From Aminobacter aganoensis (GTDB lineage: Bacteria > Pseudomonadota > Alphaproteobacteria > Rhizobiales > Rhizobiaceae): a DNA stretch of 64,000 nucleotides. The stretch lies in assembly GCF_014206975.1 (NCBI RefSeq), contig NZ_JACHOU010000003.1, positions 124,001 through 188,000 on the forward strand. The letters run 5' to 3'. This document shows, piece after piece, positions 6,497-18,636 of the stretch (positions within the stretch are counted from its first letter, which is position 1; each line of letters opens with the position of its first letter). The translations under genes and the position numbers were made by a program. The notes under the pieces were generated by a model, which saw only the letters and a program-made list of their open reading frames with translations, was not told where the DNA came from and ran no database searches.

Positions 6497-6624
6497 GTGT
6501 GTTGAAGTCCTTGCGGCGAGCCGTGCGCCAGCATGTTTGCACGCCGCCAGGACCGTTCGTCGGCATGAGAAAAACAGCCTGAAGTCCGTCGGCACCCGTT
6601 GACACGGGGGTGTCCGTTTTGCAG

Positions 6625-6642
6625 AGTGAAACCGGTTTCACT
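6625..6642. promoter_or_regulatory. Perfect 18-bp palindrome, LacI-type operator, at the head of the importer operon
   Basis: AGTGAAACC and GGTTTCACT form a perfect palindrome centred on CG, the typical shape of LacI-family operators. It lies 18 bases before the TTG start of the first permease gene. A TTGACA at 6599-6604 could be the -35 box, which would place the palindrome over the -10 and start point, as expected for repression. The LacI-family gene at 10654-11652 is the obvious candidate to bind it. Confidence 0.75.
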
Positions 6643-6659
6643 TTCCGGGAACGTGCCGC

Positions 6660-7331
6660 TTGAAGTTCGACCTGTCGATCCTCGCCAAGCATATCCCCTT
6701 CCTGCTGGAAGGGGCCTGGCTGACGTTGCAGGCCTGCACGCTGGCCGTGATCGGTTCGCTGGTGCTCGGCCTGGCCGTCGGTGCCATGCGCACGTCGGCC
6801 TCGCCGCTGCTCAACAGGCTGGCGGCGGTCTATGTCGACATCTTCCGCAACATCCCGTTCATCGTGCAGCTGTTCTTCTTCTATTTCGGCCTGCCCGAGA
6901 TCGGCATCTACATCGATGCCTTCACGACGGGCGTCGTTGCGCTTTCGATCGCCGGCGGCGCCTTCACCTCGGACGTCATCCGCTCGGGCATCCTGGCAAT
7001 CGACCCGGGTGTCATCGAGGCAGCACAGGTCAGTGGGCTGAAGAAGAGCACGATCTTCCGCAGGATCATCCTGCCGATTGCCCTGCGCGCCTCGATCCGG
7101 CCGCTCGGATCGGTGTTCGTCAACCTGATCCTGACGTCCTCGATCCTGTCGACGATCACCCTCAACGAACTGACCGGTTCGGCCAAGATCGTGGCGTCGA
7201 ACACGTTCAGGCCCTTTGAGGTCTATTTCGTCCTGCTCGTCGCCTACGCAGCACTGACCTATACGGTGTCGATCCTGATCGGCATGCTGCACCGCCATCT
7301 CAACCGTCACCAGGCGGAGGGGGCGGTCTGA
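6660..7331 (+). CDS. Amino-acid-type ABC transporter permease (HisM/GlnP family), subunit 1
   Basis: The 223-residue inner-membrane protein has five hydrophobic segments and the EAA loop (AAQVSGLKKSTIFRRIILP, about residues 119-137) that contacts the ATPase. It belongs to the polar amino acid/opine permease family. The start is a TTG, since no ATG occurs before the family-typical N-terminus MKFDLSILAKHIPFLLEG; GGGA lies nine bases upstream. It is the first gene of an operon with a second permease, an ATPase, an asparaginase-like hydrolase and a binding protein. The substrate is not readable from the permease itself; the hydrolase suggests an asparagine conjugate. Confidence 0.9.
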   Translation: MKFDLSILAKHIPFLLEGAWLTLQACTLAVIGSLVLGLAVGAMRTSASPLLNRLAAVYVDIFRNIPFIVQLFFFYFGLPEIGIYIDAFTTGVVALSIAGGAFTSDVIRSGILAIDPGVIEAAQVSGLKKSTIFRRIILPIALRASIRPLGSVFVNLILTSSILSTITLNELTGSAKIVASNTFRPFEVYFVLLVAYAALTYTVSILIGMLHRHLNRHQAEGAV

Positions 7332-8002
7332 TGCGCTACGGGGATTTCACGCCGTTCGACATCGTGCTGCTGCTTCAGGGCCTCGGCGTCTCGCTGGCGC
7401 TGTTCGTCTCGACGACGCTGATTGGCCTGGTCATCGGCACGGCCTGGGCGGTGATCCGCTTCTATCGCGTGCCGGTGCTGGCCCAGATCGTCGCCTTCAT
7501 CGCCGAGCTGCTCAAGAACTCGCCGGTTCTGGTGCAGCTGTTCCTGGTCTTCTTCGGCCTGCCGGCCTTCCTCAAGATCAACGTCACGCCGACCGAGGCC
7601 GCCGTCATCACGCTCTCGGGAAACAGCGCCGCCTTCATCTATGTCATCGCGGTGTCGGCCATCGAGTCGGTGGGGCGCGACCAGATCGAGGCGGCGCGGG
7701 TCTTCGGCCTCACCCGCTGGCAGATCCTGCGCCGGGTCATCGCGCCACAGGCGGCAGCCTTCGCCATTGGCCCGCTCACCGGGCTCCTGGTCAACCAACT
7801 GCAGGTGACCTCGCTGATCTCGGTCATCGGTGTCATGGACCTGACCAAGGTCGGCAATATCCTCAACCTGCGCACGCTGAAGCCGTTCATCGTCTGGACC
7901 GCCGTCGGCGCGCTCTATTACCTGACCGCAAAGCTGGTCGCCTACGCCGGAGGCCGCTTCGAAAAGCGGCTCAGGGCGCACACGGCATGGAGAGGCCTCT
8001 GA
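7331..8002 (+). CDS. Amino-acid-type ABC transporter permease, subunit 2
   Basis: This second 223-residue permease starts at an ATG overlapping the previous stop by one base, indicating translational coupling. It has the same five-segment architecture and an EAA loop (AARVFGLTRWQILRRVIAP). Two different permeases of this family normally form a heterodimer through which the substrate passes. The next gene, the ATPase, is coupled in the same TGATG manner. Confidence 0.9.
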   Translation: MRYGDFTPFDIVLLLQGLGVSLALFVSTTLIGLVIGTAWAVIRFYRVPVLAQIVAFIAELLKNSPVLVQLFLVFFGLPAFLKINVTPTEAAVITLSGNSAAFIYVIAVSAIESVGRDQIEAARVFGLTRWQILRRVIAPQAAAFAIGPLTGLLVNQLQVTSLISVIGVMDLTKVGNILNLRTLKPFIVWTAVGALYYLTAKLVAYAGGRFEKRLRAHTAWRGL

Positions 8003-8733
8003 TGATCAGCGTATCGGGTGTACGCAAATCCTTTGGCGCGGCCACCGTGCTCAATGGCGTCGATCTCGAAATCCGCCAGGGCGAGGTCGTCTCGGTTCTC
8101 GGCTCCAGCGGCTCGGGCAAGTCGACGCTCATCCGCTGCATCAACGGCCTGGAGAAGATCGACGCCGGCAAGATCACGGTCGACAATTTCGACGTCTCCA
8201 AGCCGCGCGAGCTTTCCGAGGCGCGCAAGCGCTCCGGCACCGTCTTCCAGCTCTTCAATCTCTATCCGCACATGACCGCGGTGCAGAACGTGGCACTTGC
8301 CCCCGTCGAGGTGTTGAAGGTGCCGCGCAAGCAGGCCGAGGCCGAGGCGCGCGAGCTGTTGAAGTCGGTCGGGCTGAGCGATCGGGCCGACGCCTATCCC
8401 TCGCAGCTCTCCGGCGGCCAGCGCCAGCGTGTCGGCATCTGCCGGGCGCTTGCCATGAAGCCGAGCTACCTCCTGCTTGACGAGGTCACCAGCGCGCTCG
8501 ACCCCGAGATGACCTCGGAGGTGTTGTCGATCCTGGCCAAGCTCGCCAAGGGCGGCACGACGATGGTGTTCGTCACCCACGAGATCGAATTCGCGCGCTC
8601 CATCTCCACGCGCATCGCCTTCCTCGACAAGGGCACGCTCATCGCCGACCTGCCGACCGAGGAGTTCTTCTCCGACAAGGGCATGGCCCTGCCGCGCGTG
8701 GCTCAATTCCTCTCCAAGATGCGTAAAGACTGA
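8002..8733 (+). CDS. Amino-acid ABC transporter ATP-binding protein
   Basis: The 243-residue ATPase powers the importer from the cytoplasmic side. It carries Walker A (GSSGSGKST, residues 34-42), the signature [15 protein letters not shown] and Walker B with the following Ser-Ala-Leu-Asp D-loop. The ATG at 8002 is chosen over the one at 7987 because it overlaps the upstream stop as TGATG, like the previous junction, and GGAGAGG precedes it. It is closest in type to GlnQ/HisP ATPases. The asparaginase-like gene follows one base after its stop. Confidence 0.9.
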   Translation: MISVSGVRKSFGAATVLNGVDLEIRQGEVVSVLGSSGSGKSTLIRCINGLEKIDAGKITVDNFDVSKPRELSEARKRSGTVFQLFNLYPHMTAVQNVALAPVEVLKVPRKQAEAEARELLKSVGLSDRADAYPSQLSGGQRQRVGICRALAMKPSYLLLDEVTSALDPEMTSEVLSILAKLAKGGTTMVFVTHEIEFARSISTRIAFLDKGTLIADLPTEEFFSDKGMALPRVAQFLSKMRKD

Positions 8734-8734
8734 A

Positions 8735-9658
8735 ATGATCCTGCTTGCCAATTCCGAGGCCTGGCCCGGCTTCTCCAAGAGCGTCGACCTTCTGAAGGCT
8801 GGCAGCCATGGCATCGATGCCATGGTCGCCGGCATCAGTGAGGTAGAGCGCGAGGTCAAGGTCCGCTCGGTCGGCTTCGGCGGCTGGCCGAACATGCTGG
8901 GCCGCATGGAATTCGACGCCGGCGTCATGGACGGCACGACGCGCGAAGTGGGTTCGGTCGGTGCGGTGCCGGACACCATTCCGGTCGCCGCCCTTGCGCA
9001 TGAGGTGATGAAGCGCCTGCCGCATGTCATGCTGACCGGCGACGGCGCGCGCCGCTTCGCCACCGAGATCGGCTTTGGCGTCGACGAGACGCTCTACGAA
9101 GACAGCAAGCGCGTCTGGTGGCAGCGGCTCGAAAAGGAGCTTTCGCCCGAAGAACTGGCGAAATTCCCCGACGTTCCGCTGGCGCCGCTCAGCCGCACCA
9201 TCACGGATCCCGAGCGGGTGCGCGACACCACCGTGTTCCTGTCCAAGGACAGTACGGCCGGGCTCAACGTCGTCACCTCGACCTCCGGCTGGGCCTGGAA
9301 GTATCCGGGCCGCTTGGGCGACTCGCCCATCCCCGGCGCCGGCTTCTATGCCGACAGCCGCTTCGGCGCCGCCGCCTGCACCCATACCGGCGAGATGACG
9401 ATGCGCTGCGGCACCGCCCGCACCATCGTGCTTGCCATGCGCCTCGGCCATTCGCTGGAGCAGGCGATTGCGCTTGCCATCGAGGAGCTGCGCGAACTGA
9501 AAAGCGGGTTCCTCGCCGGCGTCGTCATCCATGCGCTGGATGCCAACGGCAACCACAAGGTCGTCAGCCTGAATTGCGAAGAGCAGATCAAGTACTGGTT
9601 CTGGGACGAAAGCCTGCCCGAGCCGGAACATCGCTTCGCCGAACCGTTCACATCCTAA
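8735..9658 (+). CDS. N4-(beta-N-acetylglucosaminyl)-L-asparaginase-like Ntn-hydrolase
   Basis: The 307-residue protein belongs to the asparaginase-2/glycosylasparaginase family, which self-cleaves before a threonine and hydrolyses the amide bond of (glycosyl)asparagine to aspartate. The hallmark segment is present: TSTSG followed by PGRLGDSPIPGAGFYAD (about residues 181-207) and then a THTGE substrate loop. By alignment of spacing, the nucleophile is probably Thr165 in the RDTTVF segment; the usual HDTIG wording is altered. There is no signal peptide, so it acts in the cytoplasm on imported substrate. It lies between the ATPase and the binding-protein gene of an ABC importer. Isoaspartyl peptidase or plain asparaginase activity is the alternative. 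Confidence 0.8.
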   Translation: MILLANSEAWPGFSKSVDLLKAGSHGIDAMVAGISEVEREVKVRSVGFGGWPNMLGRMEFDAGVMDGTTREVGSVGAVPDTIPVAALAHEVMKRLPHVMLTGDGARRFATEIGFGVDETLYEDSKRVWWQRLEKELSPEELAKFPDVPLAPLSRTITDPERVRDTTVFLSKDSTAGLNVVTSTSGWAWKYPGRLGDSPIPGAGFYADSRFGAAACTHTGEMTMRCGTARTIVLAMRLGHSLEQAIALAIEELRELKSGFLAGVVIHALDANGNHKVVSLNCEEQIKYWFWDESLPEPEHRFAEPFTS

Positions 9659-9678
9659 CAACCCGAGGGAGAGGGAAA

Positions 9679-10476
9679 ATGAAGAACCTGATCACAAAAC
9701 TGGCCGGCATGGCGCTTGCCATCGGCATGGCGGCCACGGGCGCTGCCCAGGCCGGCAAGATCGATGAGATCCGCGAGCGCGGCACCGTCCGCATCGGCGT
9801 GTCGCTCGGCGGCGAGCCGATCGGCTTCCGCGACGCCCAGAACAATCCAGTCGGCTATGACGTCGACGTCGCCACCATGCTCGCCGAAAAGCTCGGCGTG
9901 CCGGTCGAATTCGTCGACGTGTCGGGCGACGCCCGCATCTCGATGCTGGTCTCCGGCCAGATCGACATCGCCGTCGCCAACACTTCGGCGACGCTCGAGC
10001 GCGCCAAGTCGGTCGACTTCTCGATCCCCTACAACCGCGCCGGCCTGCGCATCATCGTCCAGAAGGACGCCGGCATCACGTCGCTCGAAGGCCTCGCCGG
10101 CAAGAAGATCGTCGTCGGCCGCGGCTCGACGGGCGAAACCTTCATCAAGACTGCGGCGCCTCAAGCCGAACTGGTCTACACCGACAACTTCTCGCCCGAA
10201 GGCGTGCTGCTGCTGCAGCAGAAGCGCGTCGACGCCGCCATCGAGGACTCCTCGCTGCTCGACTATCTCGCCACCAAGAACGAGAACCTGGTGACGCTGC
10301 CGGGCCTGCACTCCAACGACCCGATCGGCATCGCTGTCGCCAAGGGCGACGAGGGTTTCGTCCGCTGGATCGACATGTTCGTGTCGGACTACATCCAGAG
10401 CGGTGCCTACGAGACCAACTACAAGAAGTGGTGGGGCGAAACCGCCAATCCGCCTGCGCTCACCCCGCTCTGGTAA
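9679..10476 (+). CDS. Periplasmic substrate-binding protein, family 3 (amino-acid type)
   Basis: The 265-residue protein has a signal peptide (MKNLITKLAGMALAIGMAAT, cleavage after AQA) and a family 3 solute-binding fold. It opens with RERGTVRIGVSLGGEPIGFRD, and the GYDVDVA and DIAVANTSATLERAKSVDFS segments line the ligand site. It captures the substrate in the periplasm for the two permeases encoded upstream. The ATG at 9679 follows GAGGGAGAGGG. Ligands of this family are usually amino acids or opines; the neighbouring hydrolase and sugar kinase suggest a glycosylated amino acid. A repeat element follows the gene. Confidence 0.9.
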   Translation: MKNLITKLAGMALAIGMAATGAAQAGKIDEIRERGTVRIGVSLGGEPIGFRDAQNNPVGYDVDVATMLAEKLGVPVEFVDVSGDARISMLVSGQIDIAVANTSATLERAKSVDFSIPYNRAGLRIIVQKDAGITSLEGLAGKKIVVGRGSTGETFIKTAAPQAELVYTDNFSPEGVLLLQQKRVDAAIEDSSLLDYLATKNENLVTLPGLHSNDPIGIAVAKGDEGFVRWIDMFVSDYIQSGAYETNYKKWWGETANPPALTPLW

Positions 10477-10501
10477 GGCATGCAACGGGGCGCGCTGCGC
10501 T

Positions 10502-10615
10502 GCCCCTCATCCCCTGCCGGACCTTCTCCCCGTAACGACGGGGAGAAGGACGAAGCGGCAACGCCGATGCCCCCCTCTCCCGGTCCTTCACGGGGAGAGG
10601 GTAAGGGTGAGGGGC
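10502..10615. repeat. Cloverleaf intergenic repeat (RIME-like), copy 1
   Basis: Outer arms GCCCCTCA and TGAGGGGC enclose two hairpins: CCTTCTCCCCGT with ACGGGGAGAAGG, and CCCTCTCCC with GGGGAGAGGG. The same architecture occurs at 44685-44798. It resembles the intergenic mosaic elements of rhizobia. It sits between convergent genes and could also act as a transcription end or mRNA stabiliser. Confidence 0.75.
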
Positions 10616-10653
10616 GACTTAGTTCTTACCCGGCGAGTTCGACCATTTTCGCC

Positions 10654-11652
10654 CTACGACGTCGCCCGGGGCACGAAGAAGGTCGGCACCGTCACGTCGG
10701 CCTTGCCGTCGGCGAATTCGCCCGGACGGCTGAGGAAGCGCAGGATCTCGCCGACATAGGCTTTCTTGTCGTAGCCGATGGACGAGATCGGATAGGCTTC
10801 GAAGTCGGTCAGCGACAGATTGTCGAAGCCGTAGAGCCTGAAGCGCCTGGGTTGATTTTGCGGGAAGCCGTCGCGATGAACGTCCATCACGCCCATCGCC
10901 ATCGCGTCCGACGTGCAGAACACCGCGTCGACATCGGGCCAGTCGCCCGATTGCGCCATCTGCCGGCCGCTGGCGTAGGAATAGTCGCCGCGCAGCTCGG
11001 CAACGAGCCGGATGCCGTGCAGCTGCATCTCGGCCTTGTAGGCGGCGACGCGGATCTGCTCGACCGGCGAGGACACACGGCCGGTGACGAGGGCCGCAGT
11101 GGCGACCCCTTTGCCGGCGGCGTCGGCCACCGCTTCGGCGATGCCGATCGCCTCGTCGGGAACGACCGAAGGCGAGGAGCCGTCATGCATGCCGTTGAGC
11201 ATCAGCACGTCGTCGCTGCGGAACATCTTGCGCACGCTTGCGGCGTCGGCAAAATCGGAGAACACCAGTGCTGCATCGACATGGTAGGCGACGCCGTTGC
11301 GCAGGAATTCCTCGATGCGCTCGACCGAGCCGACGCGCAGGAAGATGACCTGCTTTCCGATCGACTGGATCTCTCCGATCAGAAGGTCGAACAGGTCGAG
11401 GTCGGAGAAATCGTGGATGTGGTTGACGATGACCGCGATGAGATTGACCGTCTTGGTGGTCAGGCTGCGCGCCAGCAGATTGGGCTTGAAGCCCAGCTTC
11501 TCGGCTGCTTCAAGCACACGCGCCCGCTTGTCGGCCGACACCGGGCGGCTTTCGCTCGACAGCGCCCGCGAGGCGATGGCGCGCGACACGCCGGCAAGCT
11601 CGGCGACATCGGCGATGGTCGGCGACGTCCGTCGTTTGCGCGAACTGTCCAT
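10654..11652 (-). CDS. LacI-family transcriptional repressor
   Basis: The 332-residue regulator has an N-terminal helix-turn-helix (residues 12-31, PTIADVAELAGVSRAIASRA) and a hinge-helix region. A periplasmic-binding-like sensor domain follows, to about residue 325. The ATG at 11652 gives the normal LacI length; a longer reading frame upstream is not supported. It is divergent from the ROK kinase gene and downstream of the importer genes, so it probably senses a sugar released from the imported compound. It is the best candidate for the perfect palindrome at 6625-6642. No second copy of that palindrome was seen in the 85 bases before the ROK gene. Confidence 0.88.
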   Translation of the reverse strand: MDSSRKRRTSPTIADVAELAGVSRAIASRALSSESRPVSADKRARVLEAAEKLGFKPNLLARSLTTKTVNLIAVIVNHIHDFSDLDLFDLLIGEIQSIGKQVIFLRVGSVERIEEFLRNGVAYHVDAALVFSDFADAASVRKMFRSDDVLMLNGMHDGSSPSVVPDEAIGIAEAVADAAGKGVATAALVTGRVSSPVEQIRVAAYKAEMQLHGIRLVAELRGDYSYASGRQMAQSGDWPDVDAVFCTSDAMAMGVMDVHRDGFPQNQPRRFRLYGFDNLSLTDFEAYPISSIGYDKKAYVGEILRFLSRPGEFADGKADVTVPTFFVPRATS

Positions 11653-11737
11653 TGCTTCCTTTGCGCGGTATCGGTCATGAAATCCGGCGCGTCCGGCCGG
11701 ATGCCCCGCCGCGGAATTTCTTTCGGGAACTGATTTG

Positions 11738-12652
11738 ATGATTACCTGCTTCGACATTGGCGGTTCAACGATAAAAAGCGCCCGCGCCCGTTCGGCCGGC
11801 GAAATCGAGATCATCGACAGGGTGGCGACGCCGCTCGACGACTTCGATGCCTTCGCCGCCGTCATCGCCGGGCGCGTCGCGGCGGACAGGGGCCGCACGA
11901 AAGGCGTGTCGATCTCGATCGCCGGCGTCGTCGACCCCGCTTCGGGCAGCCTGAAATGCGCCAACATCCCTTGCCTCGACGGCAGGCTGATCGAAGCCGA
12001 CCTCGAACGCGTCATAGGCCTGCCGGTCCGTATCGCCAACGACGCCGACTGTTTTGCACTGGCCGAGGCGACCAGCGGTGCCGGCAAGGGCCACCGCAAC
12101 GTCTTCGGCGTCATCCTGGGCACCGGCGTCGGCGGCGGCCTGGTCATCGACGGCCGCATCGTTGCCGGTGCCGGCGGCTATGCCGGCGAGTGGGGCCATG
12201 GCAAGGCGCTGCAGACCGCGGTCGGCAAGCCGCCGGTCGAGGTCCCCCATTTCGCCTGCGGCTGCGGCCAGTCCGGCTGCGTCGACACCATCGGCGGCGC
12301 CCGCGGCATGGAGAAGCTGCATCACCTGCTCTGCGGCGAAGTGCTGTCGAGCACCGAGGTCATTGACCGCTGGCGCGCCGGCGAGGCCAGCGCCAGCCGC
12401 ACCATCGACATCTATCTCGAACTGGTCAGCGTTCCCCTGGCGCTGACGCTCAACATCATCGGCTCGTCGGTCGTTCCGGTCGGCGGTGGCCTGTCCAACG
12501 TGCCCGAACTTATCGAAGCGCTCGACCGCGAGGTCCGCGGACGCACCCTGCGTCGCGCCGCCGGTCCGCTGGTGGTGAAGGCCGCGCTGACCACCGAGCC
12601 CGGCCTGCTCGGCGCCGCCGCCCTCGGCCTCCAGGAGATCGCCCGTGTCTGA
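11738..12652 (+). CDS. ROK-family sugar kinase (GlcNAc/glucose-kinase-like)
   Basis: The 304-residue cytoplasmic kinase phosphorylates a hexose or amino-hexose with ATP. Visible motifs are the N-terminal phosphate loop DIGGSTIK (6-13), LGTGVGGG, the EWGH catalytic/metal segment and the ROK zinc site CGCGQSGCVD. There is no helix-turn-helix, so it is an enzyme and not a ROK repressor. The ATG at 11738 follows GGGA by nine bases; the TTG one codon earlier is unlikely. Its position with a glycosylasparaginase-like gene suggests it traps the released GlcNAc-type sugar. The exact sugar cannot be read from sequence. Confidence 0.85.
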   Translation: MITCFDIGGSTIKSARARSAGEIEIIDRVATPLDDFDAFAAVIAGRVAADRGRTKGVSISIAGVVDPASGSLKCANIPCLDGRLIEADLERVIGLPVRIANDADCFALAEATSGAGKGHRNVFGVILGTGVGGGLVIDGRIVAGAGGYAGEWGHGKALQTAVGKPPVEVPHFACGCGQSGCVDTIGGARGMEKLHHLLCGEVLSSTEVIDRWRAGEASASRTIDIYLELVSVPLALTLNIIGSSVVPVGGGLSNVPELIEALDREVRGRTLRRAAGPLVVKAALTTEPGLLGAAALGLQEIARV

Positions 12653-13391
12653 AGCGACAATGCCTGAAAAGATCCTGCTCGAAGTCTGCGTCGACAGCCC
12701 CGAAGGCCTCGCCTCGGCGATTGCCGGCGGCGCGGACCGCATCGAGCTTTGCGCTGCGCTGGAGACCGGCGGCCTGACCCCGTCGCCCGGCCTGATGGCG
12801 CTCGCCGCCAAGGCGCCGATCCCGGTCTATGCCATGATCCGTTCGCGGCCCGGCGACTTCGTCTATGGCGACAGCGACATGGCGGCATTGCTGGCCGACA
12901 TCGACGCCGTGCGCGCCTCGGGCCTCGAAGGCGTCGTGCTCGGCGCCAACCATGCCGATGGCAGCCTCGACCGCCAGGTTCTGGCCGGGCTGGCCACCCA
13001 GGCCAGGGGCCTGGGCATGACGCTGCACCGTGCCTTCGATCTCGCCGGACCGGACTTCGCAGGCGCCATCGACCTCGCCGTCGAGCTAGGCTTCGAGCGC
13101 ATCCTGACCTCGGGTGGGGAAACGACGGCGCTGAAGGGGCTCGACGCGCTTGCCGCCTGCTTTGCCCATGCCGGCGACCGCATTGCCATCATGCCGGGAT
13201 CGGGCGTCAATCTCGAAACCCTCGCCGCCATCCAGGCGCGGCTGCCTTTCCGCCAGGTCCACTCGTCTTGTTCGATGGCGGTCGACGCTCCCGCCGGCAA
13301 GGCGCGGGAGCTCGGTTTCGTCGCGCCGCGGCCGAAGCGCACCGATGCCGGCGTGGTGCGCAGGATGAGGGCTGCGCTGGACAGGCTCTAA
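12645..13391 (+). CDS. cutC: CutC-family TIM-barrel protein
   Basis: The 248-residue protein matches the CutC family throughout: RIELCAALETGGLTPS, PVYAMIRSRPGDF, TLHRAFD, RILTSGG and IMPGSGV. The name comes from a proposed role in copper handling, but its chemistry is unresolved and the fold is an enzyme-like TIM barrel. Here it overlaps the ROK kinase gene by eight bases, with AGGAG seven bases before the GTG start, so it is co-translated with sugar metabolism genes. That argues for a sugar-related role over copper homeostasis. Its stop codon overlaps that of the convergent spoVR gene. Confidence 0.88.
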   Translation: MSEATMPEKILLEVCVDSPEGLASAIAGGADRIELCAALETGGLTPSPGLMALAAKAPIPVYAMIRSRPGDFVYGDSDMAALLADIDAVRASGLEGVVLGANHADGSLDRQVLAGLATQARGLGMTLHRAFDLAGPDFAGAIDLAVELGFERILTSGGETTALKGLDALAACFAHAGDRIAIMPGSGVNLETLAAIQARLPFRQVHSSCSMAVDAPAGKARELGFVAPRPKRTDAGVVRRMRAALDRL

Positions 13392-14944
13392 GTCTTTTCG
13401 CCCAGGTCCTTGGTCGAGACTTCGTAGAGCGTCTTGTCGGTGGTGCCGTCGATGCCGACCATGCTGACCTCGTGGCCCCACAGGCGTTGGATGTAGCGCA
13501 GCGTCTCGTTGCGCGTATCTTCCTGCAGCGTGGTGCCGTGGTGGACCGTGTGCTTGATGCGCAGCTTGCGGTCGCCCTTGAGATCGGCGTCGACCGCCTG
13601 GATGTCGGGCTGCGTCACCCCGACATCGTAATTGTCGGCGAGACGCGAGCGCACGCGTTCATAGCCGCGTTCGTCATGGATCGCCGTGACCTCGTAATAG
13701 GGGTCCGAGGCCTCTTCCTGCAGCGAGAACAGCCGCATGTCGCGGATCAGCGCCGGACTCAGGAACTGCCGGATGAACGACTCGTCGCGATGCGTCGCCC
13801 ATGCGTCGAGCAGCGTGCCGCACCAGTCGCCATTGCCGGCAAAATCCGGGAACCAGTCGCGATCCTCGGCCGTCGGCTCGGTGCAGATACGCTGGATGTC
13901 GCGCATCATGTTGAAGCCCAGCGTGTAGGGGTTGAGGCCGCCGTAGCGCGGGTCGTCGAAGGAGGGCTGGAACACCACGTTGGAGTGGTTCTGCAGCACC
14001 TCCAGCATGGTGCCTTCACTGATCTGGCCCTTGTCGAACAGCCGGTTCATGATCGTGTAGTGGGTGAAGGTGGCGCAGCCTTCGTTCATCACCTTGGTCT
14101 GGCGCTGCGGGTAGAAATACTGCGCGATGACGCGGACGATACGCAGGATCTCCCGCTGCCAGGATTTCAGCACCGGGCTGTACTTCTCCAGGAAATAGAG
14201 CAGGTTTTCCTCGGGATATTCGATCGCCGATTGCCGCTCCGACATGTCGGTCTCGACGCCGCGCGGCGCCTCGGCCTCGGGTGCCTGCGGCAACGTCCGC
14301 CACAGGTCGCTGAAGGTGCGCTCCTCATGCTCCAGCCGCTCGCGGATGCGCGCCTGCTCGCGTTCGACCGACAGGCGCGGACGCCGGCGATAGCGGAACA
14401 CCGCCTGCGGCATCAGCGAATGGGCGGCATCCAGGACCGCCTCGACGGCCGCCGGTCCGTAGCGCTCCTCGCAGCGCGCGATGTAGCTCTTGGCGAACTC
14501 CATGTAGGCGAGGATGGCGCCGGCATCGGTCCATTGCTGGAACAGGTAGTTGTTCTTGAAGAAGTGGTTGTGGCCGAACGAGGCGTGCGCGATGACCAGC
14601 GTCTGCAGCGCCATGGTGTTCTCTTCCATGAGATAGGTGATGCAGGGATTGGAATTGATCACCAGCTCATAGGCGAGCCCCATGCGGCCTTTGCGGTAGA
14701 GGTTCGATTCGTGGACGAAATGCTTGCCGAAGGACCAGTGCTGGTACATCAGCGGCATGCCGATCGAGGAATAGGCGTCGAGCATCTGCTCGGATGAGAT
14801 CACCTCGATCTGGTTGGGGTAGAAGTCGAGGCGAAGCTCGTCGACCGCGATCTCCTTGATCGCCTCATAGGCGCGCGACAGGTCGTCGAAGTTCCAGTCG
14901 GAACTGGTGAAGAGCAGTTGGGAGCTTTTGGCGCGATTCTCCAC
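13388..14944 (-). CDS. spoVR: SpoVR-family protein (YcgB-like)
   Basis: This 518-residue protein has the usual length of SpoVR/YcgB proteins and family-typical stretches: YFYPQRQTKVMNEGCATF, NPYTLGFNMMRDI and the N-terminal SDWNFDDL. SpoVR was named in Bacillus spore cortex formation; in Proteobacteria its biochemical role is unknown, although the gene travels with prkA and yeaH. Here it is the third gene of that operon, nine bases after the YeaH-like gene. It has no signal peptide or membrane segment. Its final codons overlap those of the convergent cutC gene. Confidence 0.92.
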   Translation of the reverse strand: MENRAKSSQLLFTSSDWNFDDLSRAYEAIKEIAVDELRLDFYPNQIEVISSEQMLDAYSSIGMPLMYQHWSFGKHFVHESNLYRKGRMGLAYELVINSNPCITYLMEENTMALQTLVIAHASFGHNHFFKNNYLFQQWTDAGAILAYMEFAKSYIARCEERYGPAAVEAVLDAAHSLMPQAVFRYRRRPRLSVEREQARIRERLEHEERTFSDLWRTLPQAPEAEAPRGVETDMSERQSAIEYPEENLLYFLEKYSPVLKSWQREILRIVRVIAQYFYPQRQTKVMNEGCATFTHYTIMNRLFDKGQISEGTMLEVLQNHSNVVFQPSFDDPRYGGLNPYTLGFNMMRDIQRICTEPTAEDRDWFPDFAGNGDWCGTLLDAWATHRDESFIRQFLSPALIRDMRLFSLQEEASDPYYEVTAIHDERGYERVRSRLADNYDVGVTQPDIQAVDADLKGDRKLRIKHTVHHGTTLQEDTRNETLRYIQRLWGHEVSMVGIDGTTDKTLYEVSTKDLGEKT

Positions 14945-14953
14945 GTGGTGTCC

Positions 14954-16270
14954 TCATCCGCGTTTTGCCGGCGCTGGTGCCTTGGCGAACAACTCATGAA
15001 AGACGGGATAGATGTCCGACGGCTTGGCGATGCGCGTCATGGCGAAATTCGGCCACTCGGCGCCGACTTCGCGATAGGCGTTCCATAGCGACGTGCCGTT
15101 GTCGGCATGGCGGAACATCTCGCTTTCGCGCTCGTCGATGATCTCGACATAGGCGTAGTACTGGCAGAGCCGCATCAGCGTCTTGTCGAGGATCGACACG
15201 CAGCGTTCGGAGTCGTTGGGGATGTTGTCGCCGTCCGAGGCCTGGGCCGCGTAGATGTTCCAGTCCTTGCTCGGATAGCGCTCGCGGATGACGCGCAGCA
15301 TCTCCTCCAGCGCGGTGGACACCACCGTGCCGCCGCTTTGGGTGCTGTAGAAGAACGTGTCCTCGTCGACCTCCGAGGCCTCGTGCGTGTGGCGGATGAA
15401 GACGATGTCGGTCTTCTCGTAGCGGCGTTTGAGAAACAGGTGCAGCAGCACGAAGAAGCGCTTGGCGAGGTCCTTCTCGCGCTCGCCCATCGAGCCCGAA
15501 ACGTCCATCAGGCAGAACATCACGGCATTGGCGTTGGGGACCGGCTGCGGCTCGAACCGGTTGAAGCGGATGTCGATGGGGTCGATGTAGGGGATCAGCT
15601 TGCGCCGCCGCGCCAGCGTTGCCAGGTCCTCGCGCAGGACCATGATGCGTTGCAGGGTGGCGGCGCTTGGCCGCCTCTCACCCTCCAGTTTCTTGAGTTC
15701 CGCCGCGAGATCGTCGATCTCGGCCTGTTTCGGCCGCCTGAGCGCGATACGCCGGCCGAAGCTGTTGAACATCGTGCGTCCGACGCTGATGCTGGTCGGG
15801 TTGCCGCTCATCGTGTAGCCGGCCCGGCGCGGCCGGAAGGTCACCACCTCCTTGAGGTTGTGCTTGACCAGGTCGGGTAGTTCGAGGTCCTCGAAGAACA
15901 GGTCGAGCACCTCTTCGCGCGACAGCACGAACTGGAAATCGTCCTCGCCATCTCCCGACGATGACGGGTCCGAGCCCTTGCCGCCGCCGGCGGCCGGGCG
16001 GGGAATGCGGTCGCCCGTGCCGAAGGTCTTGTTGCCGGGAAGCACTTCCTCCCGGCGGCCGGTATGCGGCGCGCGCTGGAACGTCGGCTCGCCGATGCCC
16101 TTGCGCGGGATCGGGATGATCTGGTCCTGGTCCGCGGTCTCGATCTTGCCGGACCTGACCCGATCGTTGATCGCCCGTTTCAGCTCGTCACGTGCGCGCC
16201 TCAGGAAACGCTGCCTGTTGCCAAGGCTCTTGTCCTTGGGGTTGAGGCGCCGATCGATGAAGTTCGGCAT
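14954..16270 (-). CDS. YeaH/YhbH-family protein (DUF444, VWA-like domain)
   Basis: The 438-residue cytoplasmic protein has a basic, low-complexity N-terminus (about residues 1-100). A DUF444 domain follows, containing a von Willebrand A-like metal site (MDVSGSMGE, DxSxS) and a SGGT segment. It is thought to work with the PrkA kinase and SpoVR in starvation and stress responses; its molecular action is unknown. It is the middle gene of the prkA-yeaH-spoVR operon, 12 bases downstream of prkA. Confidence 0.92.
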   Translation of the reverse strand: MPNFIDRRLNPKDKSLGNRQRFLRRARDELKRAINDRVRSGKIETADQDQIIPIPRKGIGEPTFQRAPHTGRREEVLPGNKTFGTGDRIPRPAAGGGKGSDPSSSGDGEDDFQFVLSREEVLDLFFEDLELPDLVKHNLKEVVTFRPRRAGYTMSGNPTSISVGRTMFNSFGRRIALRRPKQAEIDDLAAELKKLEGERRPSAATLQRIMVLREDLATLARRRKLIPYIDPIDIRFNRFEPQPVPNANAVMFCLMDVSGSMGEREKDLAKRFFVLLHLFLKRRYEKTDIVFIRHTHEASEVDEDTFFYSTQSGGTVVSTALEEMLRVIRERYPSKDWNIYAAQASDGDNIPNDSERCVSILDKTLMRLCQYYAYVEIIDERESEMFRHADNGTSLWNAYREVGAEWPNFAMTRIAKPSDIYPVFHELFAKAPAPAKRG

Positions 16271-16282
16271 GTGTGTCCCCGA

Positions 16283-18232
16283 TCAGCCCGCCTTGTTAAC
16301 CCGCATGTACCAGTCGACAAGCCGCCGGACCTGGCGCTGCGTGTAGCCGCGCTCGGTCATGCGCTCGACGAATTCGGCATGCTGTTTCTCGGTCGTGCTG
16401 TCGCGCTTGGCGCCGAAGCTGATGACCGGCAGCAGGTCCTCGACCTGGCCGAACATGCGCTTCTCGATGACCTCGCGCAGCTTCTCGTAGCTCGTCCACG
16501 ACGGGTTGCGCCCGTTGTTCTTGGCGCGTGCCCTGAGCGTGAACTTCACCACCTCGTTGCGGAAGTCCTTCGGGTTGGCGATGCCGGCAGGCTTCTCGAT
16601 CTGCGACAGCTCGGAATCGAGGATGCCGCGGTTGAGGATCTGGCCCGTGTCGGGGTCCTTGTAGTCCTGGTCCTCGATCCACGCGTCGGCATAGGCGATG
16701 TAGCGGTCGAACAGGTTCTGGCCGTATTCGCTGTAGCTTTCGAGATAGGCCTTTTGGATCTCGTGGCCGATGAACTCGGCATAGCGCGTGGCGATCTCCG
16801 ACTTGATGAAATCGAGATAGGACTGCTCGATCTCGTTGGGAAACTGCTCGCGCTTGATCGCCTGTTCGAGCACATACATCAGGTGCACCGGGTCGGCGGC
16901 GATTTCCTTGGTGTCGTAGTTGAACGTCTCCGACAGCACTTTGAAGGCAAAGCGCGTGCTGACGCCCGTCATGCCCTCGTCGACGCCGGCGGCATCGCGA
17001 TACTCCTGCATCGACTTGGCCTTGGGATCGACGTCCTTCAGGTTCTCGCCGTCATAGACACGCATCTTGGTGTAGAGCGGCGAGTTCTCGTGTTCGGTCA
17101 GCCGGGTCGAGACGGTGAAGCGGCTGAGGATGTCGAGCACCTCGGGCGCGCAGGGATTGCTCACCAGTTCGCTCTCGCGCAGCAGCTTCTCGTAGATCTG
17201 CCGCTCTTCGGTGACGCGCAGGCAATAGGGCACCTTGACCACCAGGATGCGGTCGAGGAAGGCTTCGTTGTTCCTGTTGCTCTTGAACTGCAGCCATTCG
17301 GATTCGTTGGAATGCGCCAGCACGATGCCCTGGAAGGGGAAGGCGCCGAAGCTTTCGGTGCCGTTGTAGTTGCCTTCCTGGGTCGCGGTCAGCAGCGGAT
17401 GCAGCACCTTGATCGGCGCCTTGAACATCTCGACGAACTCCAGCAGTCCCTGGGTCGTGCGGTTCAGGCCGCCGCTGTAGGAATAGGCGTCGGGGTCGGC
17501 CTGGCTGAAATTCTCGAGCTTGCGGATGTCGACCTTGCCGACAAGCGCCGACACGTCCTGGTTGTTCTCGTCGCCGGGCTCGGTCTTGGCGATGCAGATC
17601 TGGCGCAGCCGCGACGGCGTCAGCTTGACCACGCTGAATTTGGAAACGTCGCCGCCGATTTCTTCGAGGCGCTTGGCCGCCCAGGGCGAAATCAGGCCGG
17701 TCAGCCGGCGCCGGGCGATGCCGTACTTGTCTTCGAGCAGATCGGCCATGCGCTCAGGATGGAACAGGCCGAGGGGTGATTCGAAGATCGGGCTGATCTG
17801 GCCGTTGATCTTGAGCGTGTAGATCGGCCGCTCTTCCATCAGCTTCTTCAGCCGCTCGGCCAGCGACGACTTGCCGCCGCCGACGGGCCCGAGCAGGTAC
17901 AGGATCTGCTTGCGTTCCTCGAGCCCTTGCGCGGCATAGCGGAAGTAGCCGACGATCCGCTCGATCGTGTCTTCCATGCCGTAGAACTCGGCAAATGCCG
18001 GATAAATCTTGATTGTTCGGTTTGCGAAGATGCGCCCCATCCGGGGGTCCGCGCTTGTGTCGATCAGCGTGGGGGCGCCGATGGCGTCCACCATTCGCTC
18101 CGCGGCCGTGGCATACATTGCCGGCTGGTCGCGGCAGGCGAGCAGATACTGCTGGAGGCTCATCTCCTCGGTCGTCTGACTGCTGTAGATTTCCGAGAAG
18201 AGATTGAAGACGTCGGTTTCACGTGTTTGCAT
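16283..18232 (-). CDS. prkA: PrkA-family serine protein kinase / AAA ATPase (YeaG-like)
   Basis: The 649-residue protein has an N-terminal AAA-type domain with Walker A LGPVGGGKSS (about residues 99-108). The C-terminal part is distantly similar to protein kinases. It matches the usual PrkA length when started at the ATG at 18232, which follows GAGGG; a longer start at 18274 is not supported. PrkA/YeaG takes part in nitrogen starvation and stress responses in enterobacteria and is reported to have kinase or protease activity. It leads the three-gene operon with the DUF444 and SpoVR genes. Confidence 0.93.
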   Translation of the reverse strand: MQTRETDVFNLFSEIYSSQTTEEMSLQQYLLACRDQPAMYATAAERMVDAIGAPTLIDTSADPRMGRIFANRTIKIYPAFAEFYGMEDTIERIVGYFRYAAQGLEERKQILYLLGPVGGGKSSLAERLKKLMEERPIYTLKINGQISPIFESPLGLFHPERMADLLEDKYGIARRRLTGLISPWAAKRLEEIGGDVSKFSVVKLTPSRLRQICIAKTEPGDENNQDVSALVGKVDIRKLENFSQADPDAYSYSGGLNRTTQGLLEFVEMFKAPIKVLHPLLTATQEGNYNGTESFGAFPFQGIVLAHSNESEWLQFKSNRNNEAFLDRILVVKVPYCLRVTEERQIYEKLLRESELVSNPCAPEVLDILSRFTVSTRLTEHENSPLYTKMRVYDGENLKDVDPKAKSMQEYRDAAGVDEGMTGVSTRFAFKVLSETFNYDTKEIAADPVHLMYVLEQAIKREQFPNEIEQSYLDFIKSEIATRYAEFIGHEIQKAYLESYSEYGQNLFDRYIAYADAWIEDQDYKDPDTGQILNRGILDSELSQIEKPAGIANPKDFRNEVVKFTLRARAKNNGRNPSWTSYEKLREVIEKRMFGQVEDLLPVISFGAKRDSTTEKQHAEFVERMTERGYTQRQVRRLVDWYMRVNKAG

Positions 18233-18636
18233 GGCACCCTCACAATGCCGAAGTCGGTGGGAGTGTAACACCACTTCGACCTTTTGCCTTCATCTCAACT
18301 TTCGTGAACAGCCAAAGTTCCCCACAGAATGTCGTGATCGAAGATTTAGTTTGCATGCATGGAATTGTGGCGGCGCATTCGCACTGGCGAACGGCGCGAG
18401 CGCACTGTCCATGGCGGTTTTCTGCCTGCGCTGAAGTTCAACTACGGGCTGTTTCCACGAGAGGCTGACCGCTCGAATGGATCGCGGCCAGTCGCCGGGT
18501 TTTTCGGCAGGCCGCCAGGCTCCATGTCGAAATCGCGGCCGCGACACAAGGTGACACTCGACGCTGCGACCTTCGCCCGGCTATGAACGACGACCGCATG
18601 GAGGCGGACAGTTTTTGCAGGGAAGGGATGGCTGTC
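18233..18636. other. Divergent intergenic region between prkA and the OsmC-like gene
   Basis: These 404 bases should contain the promoters of the minus-strand prkA operon and the plus-strand OsmC-family gene. About 30 bases upstream of prkA, CGAAGT and ACTTCG form an imperfect hairpin with inner GGTG/CACC pairing. No sigma-54 type GG-N10-GC pair at convincing spacing was found by eye, and no coding frame looks real. Confidence 0.35.

Follow-up and report, generated by a model that had tools for sequence, protein, structure and literature searches.

The closest described system to the locus reported here is the alf-2 cluster of Lactobacillus casei, which, according to the available sections of its report, uses fucosyl-N-acetylglucosaminyl-asparagine (fucosyl-GlcNAc-Asn) by means of a permease, an intracellular glycosylasparaginase, and a GlcNAc kinase of the ROK family, the resulting glycosylamine being taken to fall apart spontaneously at low internal pH (PMC6960285). 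In a stretch of 64,000 nucleotides from the 5.76-Mb genome of Aminobacter aganoensis (contig NZ_JACHOU010000003.1, positions 124,001 to 188,000; hereafter the window), positions 6660-13391 hold eight genes, which encode the four components of an amino-acid-type ATP-binding cassette (ABC) importer, a glycosylasparaginase-like N-terminal nucleophile (Ntn) hydrolase, a LacI-family repressor, a ROK sugar kinase, and CutC. It is probable that together they serve the import and intracellular cleavage of a GlcNAc-Asn-like conjugate, with subsequent action of the ROK kinase, an amino-sugar step by CutC, and repression by the LacI protein. To our knowledge, CutC, a widespread family named for copper, has no agreed biochemical function. 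An earlier note on this DNA had proposed a single operon for the uptake and breakdown of such a conjugate, with CutC in a sugar step; its pathway idea is largely right, its claims of a single operon and of no precedent are wrong, and it had understated how much the CutC link tells. Gene order, conservation, the operator and its tie to the LacI gene, gene linkage, family assignments, and the presence of nagA and a nagB-II-type gene were all computed; we infer what the substrate is, which reactions take place, whether the kinase or CutC acts first, and that the LacI protein represses.

All eight genes listed in the earlier note were recovered by open reading frame calls and profile matches, with small coordinate corrections. 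The first plus-strand unit (6660-10476) encodes permease 1 (6660..7331, TTG start; PF00528, 71.7 bits), permease 2 (7331..8002; PF00528, 59.1 bits), the importer ATPase (7987..8733; PF00005, 124.6 bits), for which an ATG at 8002 may be the true start, the hydrolase (8735..9658; PF01112, 174.9 bits, cut-off 27), and a family-3 (amino-acid type) binding protein with a signal peptide (9679..10476; PF00497, 115.7 bits). The start of this unit had been placed at 6599, which is where an open reading frame in another frame begins. The hydrolase gene lies, as described before, between the ATPase and binding-protein genes, beginning after a 1-base gap from the ATPase stop codon. The LacI gene (10654..11652, minus strand; PF00356, 46 bits; PF13377, 32.6 bits) converges on the importer unit and diverges from a second unit (11738-13391), so that the plus strand carries two units; the second consists of the ROK sugar kinase gene, nearest to NagK (11738..12652, plus strand; PF00480, 161 bits), and the CutC gene (12645..13391, plus strand; PF03932, 220.4 bits, cut-off 23.3), which overlap by 8 bases provided that the GTG start of CutC is correct. 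The LacI, ROK, and CutC genes thus follow the importer in position, as had been claimed, with the LacI gene on the minus strand and pointing towards the importer.

With the hydrolase as query, a collection of 84,980 species genomes yielded 375 relatives, and the locus counts given here refer to the best 80 of the 375. All four importer genes were present in 76/80 loci and the LacI gene in 70/80; ROK and CutC were each found in 43, and both in 42. In 26 loci the ROK-CutC pair is found on the downstream side of the hydrolase gene (in a 27th, the sequence ends after ROK); in another 16 it is placed upstream of permease 1, and these 16 are all from Burkholderiales (Massilia, Duganella, Herbaspirillum, and a Burkholderiaceae metagenome-assembled genome). 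That the pair stays beside the importer despite rearrangement speaks for a working link. The conservation of the cluster is far beyond chance, and the idea that these genes belong together is borne out by its retention across Alpha- and Betaproteobacteria, even with ROK-CutC on the opposite flank. Within Aminobacter, the hydrolase gene occurred in 10/10 genomes searched, including that of the window, one copy being cut by a contig end.

The loci also vary in what accompanies the importer. A 452-residue protein, termed c7, occurs in 13/80 loci and replaces ROK-CutC in 12, mostly from Rhizobium, while locus L070 has both; examples are L038:12940-14298, L070, L074, and L077. At E 1e-3 neither Pfam nor NCBIfam gave a match to it, and there were only weak hints of M24/Xaa-Pro peptidases at E about 0.08. 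In four Aureimonas loci (e.g., L053:5623-7591), a SIS-domain gene and a second ROK type replace ROK-CutC and diverge from the LacI gene; in both Aureimonas genomes looked at, a ROK-CutC pair is present elsewhere. Each of the 19 genomes searched, from a selection of 20, has one CutC gene, with a ROK gene beside it in 10/19. In Mesorhizobium sp. LHD-90 (L098), CutC adjoins the binding-protein gene, and this importer-unit CutC belongs to another lineage in the CutC tree. One hydrolase relative from Gellertiella (L036:10001-10918) has no importer beside it and carries Asn at the place of the nucleophile (RDNT). On the far side of CutC in the window, a minus-strand gene set (13388-18274), which we read as SpoVR, YeaH-like, and PrkA-like genes, is the same neighbour in 5/80 loci, all from Aminobacter.

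The link of CutC with glycosylasparaginases was assessed in 398 genomes of the phylum, of which 69 have CutC and 104 have PF01112. Here, the glycosylasparaginase type was set by the match start in the PF01112 profile (positions 28-33) and not by a tree, and the adjacency counts are among the PF01112 matches listed, with the omission of 8 rows representing second pieces of counted genes and of one 23-bit CutC fragment. CutC was located within 5 kb of 11/25 glycosylasparaginase-type genes, as compared with 0/117 other PF01112 matches (p 6e-10). When restricted to genomes having CutC, 11/19 were adjacent (p 3e-7), and removal of the window left 10/18 (p 8e-7); about 0.04 adjacent cases were expected. 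The 11 cases span 8 genera and 5 families; one genus contributes four of them and the window one. The co-occurrence check suggested in the earlier note came out positive. At the genome level, CutC occurred in 19/25 hydrolase genomes, as compared with 69/398 overall. Because CutC is common in the window's own family (14/17 genomes listed), genome-level co-occurrence is weak there and the presence of CutC in 19/19 genomes is not decisive; the adjacency test is the stronger one.

Inspection of these loci showed that the linked CutC genes are accompanied by three kinase families, ROK, PF02685, and the BadF type. In L122, L124, and L125, a PF02685 glucokinase-family gene, a gene for a glycosylasparaginase whose start looks Tat-like by eye, and CutC are in a row, with a glycoside hydrolase family 92 (GH92) gene nearby in L124; L123 and L138 resemble them. 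L126 has a BadF-type kinase (NF046058 GlcNAc kinase, 321.7 bits, cut-off 370), a glycosylasparaginase, and CutC, and L127 combines a BadF-type gene and a glycosylasparaginase with CutC, a sodium symporter, and two glycoside hydrolases, a GH85 endo-N-acetylglucosaminidase and a GH2 mannosidase-like enzyme. After cleavage by GH85 enzymes, asparagine still carries a GlcNAc residue. Outside the phylum, in Hymenobacter (Bacteroidota), the CutC and hydrolase genes overlap by 4 bases in 3/3 plasmid regions examined (four records matched), with GH92 near in all three and ROK in two; the H. tibetensis region adds LacI, nagB, a major facilitator superfamily (MFS) transporter, and GH18. A 42-row CutC tree requires 8 gains or losses to account for the linkage, and well supported branches force at least 6 of these. 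Recurring on several branches and in two phyla, the linkage offers CutC a concrete, testable job in amino-sugar catabolism. A CutC step in amino-sugar catabolism, in line with the sugar step proposed earlier, is well supported by the linkage with glycosylasparaginase-type genes, although its exact reaction is not.

Several other arrangements were seen around these genes. On a Qingshengfaniella plasmid (L188:1997-8561), genes for MurNAc 6-phosphate etherase, ROK, CutC, Gfo/Idh, and a sugar ABC importer are in a row, and in another genus of the window's family (L155:3194-8283), ROK-CutC follows a peptide-type binding protein (PF00496) and two permease-like genes. Glycosylasparaginase-type genes also lie beside a phosphotransferase system (PTS) EIIC gene in family f70 (L131:7072-8001 and L137:7500-8426), and a PTS IIC gene is near the asnA2-type gene of Latilactobacillus curvatus (L178).

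A LacI-type operator, the perfect palindrome GTGAAACCGGTTTCAC, is located at 6626..6641, 34 bases before the permease 1 gene, and its core occurs with 0 mismatches only at this place in the window. Before the importer, a site with at least 13/16 bases was present in 73/77 loci having a readable upstream stretch, and all 16 bases were kept in 36; of 2000 random 260-base draws from the loci, true sites included, 22 reached 13 or more. The site was found in 70/70 loci with the LacI gene, in 1/5 lacking it, and in 2/2 where the contig ends before the LacI place (70/70 versus 1/5, Fisher p 4e-6). The stretch before ROK has a best match of 8-11/16 bases, the background level. Since the operator tracks the LacI gene and the ROK upstream stretch is at background, LacI would control the importer unit, with the kinase unit run separately, and one LacI regulon shared by both units is not borne out. 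The single-operon reading of the earlier note was rejected because the LacI gene converges on the importer and the operator precedes the importer unit only. Beyond the pre-permease stretch, 32 further operator-like sites with at least 13/16 bases were found in 1,447,349 positions of the 77 loci; 27 of them share one position within the hydrolase gene, where they cover codons for a peptide that is conserved by eye, and we take these 27 as a coding coincidence. Four of the 32 precede c7 (in L038, L052, L054, and L070) and one more is upstream in L070; we take c7 as a member of the LacI regulon in these four loci.

The hydrolase probably works like a glycosylasparaginase. By sequence and fold, its best solved relative is the E. 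meningoseptica glycosylasparaginase (112-114 bits, versus 84-86 for isoaspartyl peptidase/type III asparaginase chains), and its structure model (pLDDT 93.8) gives TM values of 0.84/0.88 to 1p4k, with a TMq of 0.84 versus 0.74-0.78 for isoaspartyl peptidase types. From alignments, self-cleavage is predicted at D164/T165, and R193, D196, T216, and T183 are the counterparts of R180, D183, T203, and T170 of the E. meningoseptica enzyme, the first three of which presumably bind the aspartyl part. By crude hydropathy and reading by eye, a signal-peptide-like N-terminus is present in the binding protein and not in the hydrolase, in agreement with the earlier note on the latter. In Mesorhizobium albiziae (L068), the gene of a hydrolase relative of the same clade (76% identical) overlaps a GH20 hexosaminidase gene by 4 bases, within an operon of a sugar ABC importer and an RpiR regulator, and a more distant relative (L135, 58% identical) comes after oligopeptide-type ABC genes and an M17 aminopeptidase.

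The kinase also points to an N-acetylhexosamine. Its best match among the NCBIfam kinases is NagK (NF009835, 215.4 bits) and among solved structures the GlcNAc kinase 7p7i (E 2e-50), and it carries CGCGQSGC, a form of the CGCG..GC motif of ROK kinases, to which we ascribe a zinc role. A sugar ABC operon precedes the ROK-CutC pair in L139-L142 (Gellertiella, two Aureimonas, and Antarcticirhabdus). Its Aminobacter counterpart, with 69-87% identity for the individual genes, has nagA next to it, along with genes for a NagB-II-type protein and a BadF-type kinase. The binding protein of this sugar ABC operon matches NgcE only weakly (44 bits, under the cut-off of 400), and on contig C10 NagA (307.5 bits, cut-off 225.65) is found together with the NagB-II-type gene (303 bits, cut-off 430). 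Together with the GH85, GH92, GH18, and nagB genes near CutC-linked glycosylasparaginases, the GH20 overlap makes the proposed GlcNAc-Asn-like substrate probable, and we regard this substrate, inferred as it is, as well supported.

As for the importer, permease 1 scores 107 bits against the HEQRo domain model TIGR01726 (cut-off 42.2) and permease 2 scores 65.4 bits; with SBP_bac_3 and the HEQRo permease domain above cut-off, it classifies as a polar amino-acid ABC importer. The top NCBIfam match of the ATPase is GlnQ (278 bits, under the cut-off of 379). The closest solved chain to the binding protein is AncQR, the Arg and Asp columns of which are kept; we take these columns to be part of the amino-acid binding site, and their retention would suit a ligand whose amino acid end is free. 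Among the matches of the binding protein, a deoxyfructosyl-amino acid binding protein ranks 24th with 74 bits, and the Aureimonas loci have a SIS-domain gene and another ROK gene where ROK-CutC is expected, which might suggest the Amadori compound fructosyl-asparagine as the substrate. This is highly improbable: generic amino-acid binders score far higher (141 bits), no deglycase gene lies within 6660-13391, and, by established chemistry, hydrolases of this kind cut a side-chain amide, whereas the Amadori sugar sits on the α-amine.

Several observations weigh against the GlcNAc-Asn pathway. The hydrolase lacks the W11 stretch and has His at the place of G204, both being changed in all 14 members of its clade, although a Trp at its position 10 aligns with another Trp and might stand in for W11. 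For the E. meningoseptica enzyme, the accessible part of the source gives ~3% activity left on Asp-pNA for W11A, G204A, G204E, and G204R, and 12% for T169A (PMC13204146). In a 39-row tree, which the characterised E. meningoseptica enzyme entered as a fragment, the 14-row clade stands apart from the characterised glycosylasparaginases (support 98/95). The clade unites the window hydrolase with 13 relatives, which come from genomes of the Rhizobiales type, from Betaproteobacteria, and, in the case of L135, from one genome in another family of the phylum; Calothrix and Thermomicrobium proteins join on long branches in an unsure manner. It keeps the D-T cleavage site except in L036, shares the T170, R180, D183, and T203 counterparts, and has R-D-T-T where the characterised enzyme has H-D-T-I, and Ser for T169. 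The L. curvatus protein (L178), a relative of the proven L. casei AsnA2, keeps Trp and Gly at the W11 and G204 places. Owing to the changes at W11 and G204 and the separate clade, we did not file the hydrolase as a glycosylasparaginase, and its substrate is read from the company of its gene rather than from its residues. The kinase is under the NagK equivalog cut-off (215.4 versus 380), no LacI operator precedes ROK, and the ABC importer may have another substrate. ROK is absent beside the importer in 37/80 loci and CutC likewise in 37/80, of which only 3 and 4, respectively, have less than 4.5 kb of sequence downstream. Among the 25 genomes with a glycosylasparaginase-type gene, 6 have no CutC and 8 have it elsewhere, and CutC-kinase (BadF or ROK) pairs occur without a glycosylasparaginase-type gene in the stretch seen in L155, L184, L187, and L188. 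A narrow role of CutC is further disfavoured by L152-L154, L156-L158, L185, and L186, in which no sugar gene was found beside CutC by eye or annotation.

The changed W11 and G204 places would be explained if the conjugate were another sugar amide, such as glucosyl-Asn, a glycosylated glutamine, or a modified GlcNAc-Asn, for which the position of the kinase outside the NagK cut-off could also be cited. We consider such a substrate unlikely, since the GH20 company, NagK as the nearest kinase, and the weak-NgcE operon that hosts ROK-CutC in L139-L142 all point to N-acetylhexosamines. Similarly doubtful is the view that the hydrolase is an ordinary isoaspartyl peptidase or asparaginase, that the importer serves a plain amino acid or an isoaspartyl dipeptide, and that the kinase and CutC are neighbours by history. 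Public records label the Phyllobacterium relatives as isoaspartyl peptidase/L-asparaginase, the importer family carries amino acids, and two glycosylasparaginase residues are missing; however, the beta-aspartyl-peptidase (IaaA) model NF007589 gives only 97.1 bits (cut-off 567), the GTVGAVA motif of two IaaA-type alignment rows was not found in the hydrolase, glycosylasparaginases are its best solved relatives by both sequence and fold, the GH20 overlap is seen in L068, and ROK-CutC is retained on either flank.

For a GlcNAc-Asn-like conjugate, the following route may be drawn. The importer would take up a free amino acid bearing a GlcNAc-type sugar on its side-chain amide (GlcNAc-Asn or a close relative), a putative leftover of glycoprotein breakdown, and in the cytoplasm the hydrolase would split this compound, yielding aspartate and 1-amino-GlcNAc, the glycosylamine of the sugar. 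Phosphorylation of the amino sugar so formed would fall to the ROK kinase, and its conversion to fructose 6-phosphate to NagA and NagB-II, whose genes are located in another part of the genome. CutC would act on the released amino sugar or its phosphate, and the LacI protein would repress the importer-hydrolase unit through the operator at 6626-6641. The model of the window CutC (pLDDT 96.1) has a TMq of 0.87-0.91 to human and Shigella CutC, placing it in the family by both PF03932 and barrel. This fold is a phosphosugar barrel, whose nearest non-CutC members are MJ1099 (Z 21.1), hexulose-phosphate synthase, RuBisCO-like proteins, DERA, and PRAI, and the match list of the modelled fold points to a phosphosugar barrel alone, excluding no family. 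Our preferred guess, offered tentatively and with a rather low likelihood, is that CutC is a glycosylamine hydrolase releasing ammonia from the 1-amino-GlcNAc, or its 6-phosphate, made by glycosylasparaginases. It is prompted by a gap in the known pathway, in which glycosylamine breakdown is taken as spontaneous at low internal pH. The instability of 1-amino-GlcNAc is described for acid pH, whereas most bacteria keep a near neutral interior. Should CutC prove to hydrolyse such compounds, a reaction so far regarded as spontaneous would turn out to be enzymatic. Since loci of this kind contain separate CutC lineages, the whole family may share the activity. According to the available part of one source, cytosolic glycans released by NGLY1 carry the same 1-amino-GlcNAc end (PMC12525304), and since its product is identical, the proposal could extend to human CUTC, acting on NGLY1-released glycans.

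The copper phenotype of E. coli cutC mutants is reported to stem from the MicL small RNA, and no copper gene is among the eight window genes described. In the accessible sections of the respective sources, MicL is located at the 3' end of cutC (PMC8216713), cutC is mentioned only within an expression table (PMC3146418), and VirK is described as having predicted links, one to CutC and one to an asparaginase (PMC5700972). A pairing of CutC with glycosylasparaginase or aspartylglucosaminidase was not found in the freely available papers searched, and those mentioning CutC together with N-acetylglucosamine kinase appeared unrelated.

In comparison with known systems, the pathway logic is already known from L. 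casei, so that the claim of no described bacterial pathway of this kind does not hold: within the available sections, alf-2 and the window have in common the import of an intact glyco-amino acid, a dedicated repressor, a hydrolase without signal peptide (AsnA2), and a ROK-family GlcNAc kinase (SugK) (PMC6960285). The same sections describe an MFS permease, a fucosidase, a GntR repressor, and PepV, and name no CutC, whereas the window has an amino-acid-type ABC importer (PMC6960285); the AsnA2-type L178 and the PTS-linked L131 and L137 belong to a clade different from that of the window hydrolase. With the E. meningoseptica glycosylasparaginase (EC 3.5.1.26), the window hydrolase shares the PF01112 fold, the D-T site, and the T170, R180, D183, and T203 counterparts, and differs from it in R-D-T-T, Ser for T169, the absence of W11, His for G204, the lack of a signal peptide, and its separate clade. 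The kinase shares with NagK the CGCG..GC motif and best matches, and differs in scoring under the equivalog cut-off, while CutC has the barrel of its family and is tied here to amino-sugar kinases and glycosylasparaginases. The locus also adds an ABC-type bacterial route to the GlcNAc-Asn stub of glycoproteins, together with a hydrolase clade annotated as isoaspartyl peptidase. Altogether, the novelty lies in an ABC importer of the amino-acid type, a hydrolase clade of its own, the LacI operator, and, most of all, the repeated association of CutC with glycosylasparaginases and with kinases of three families.

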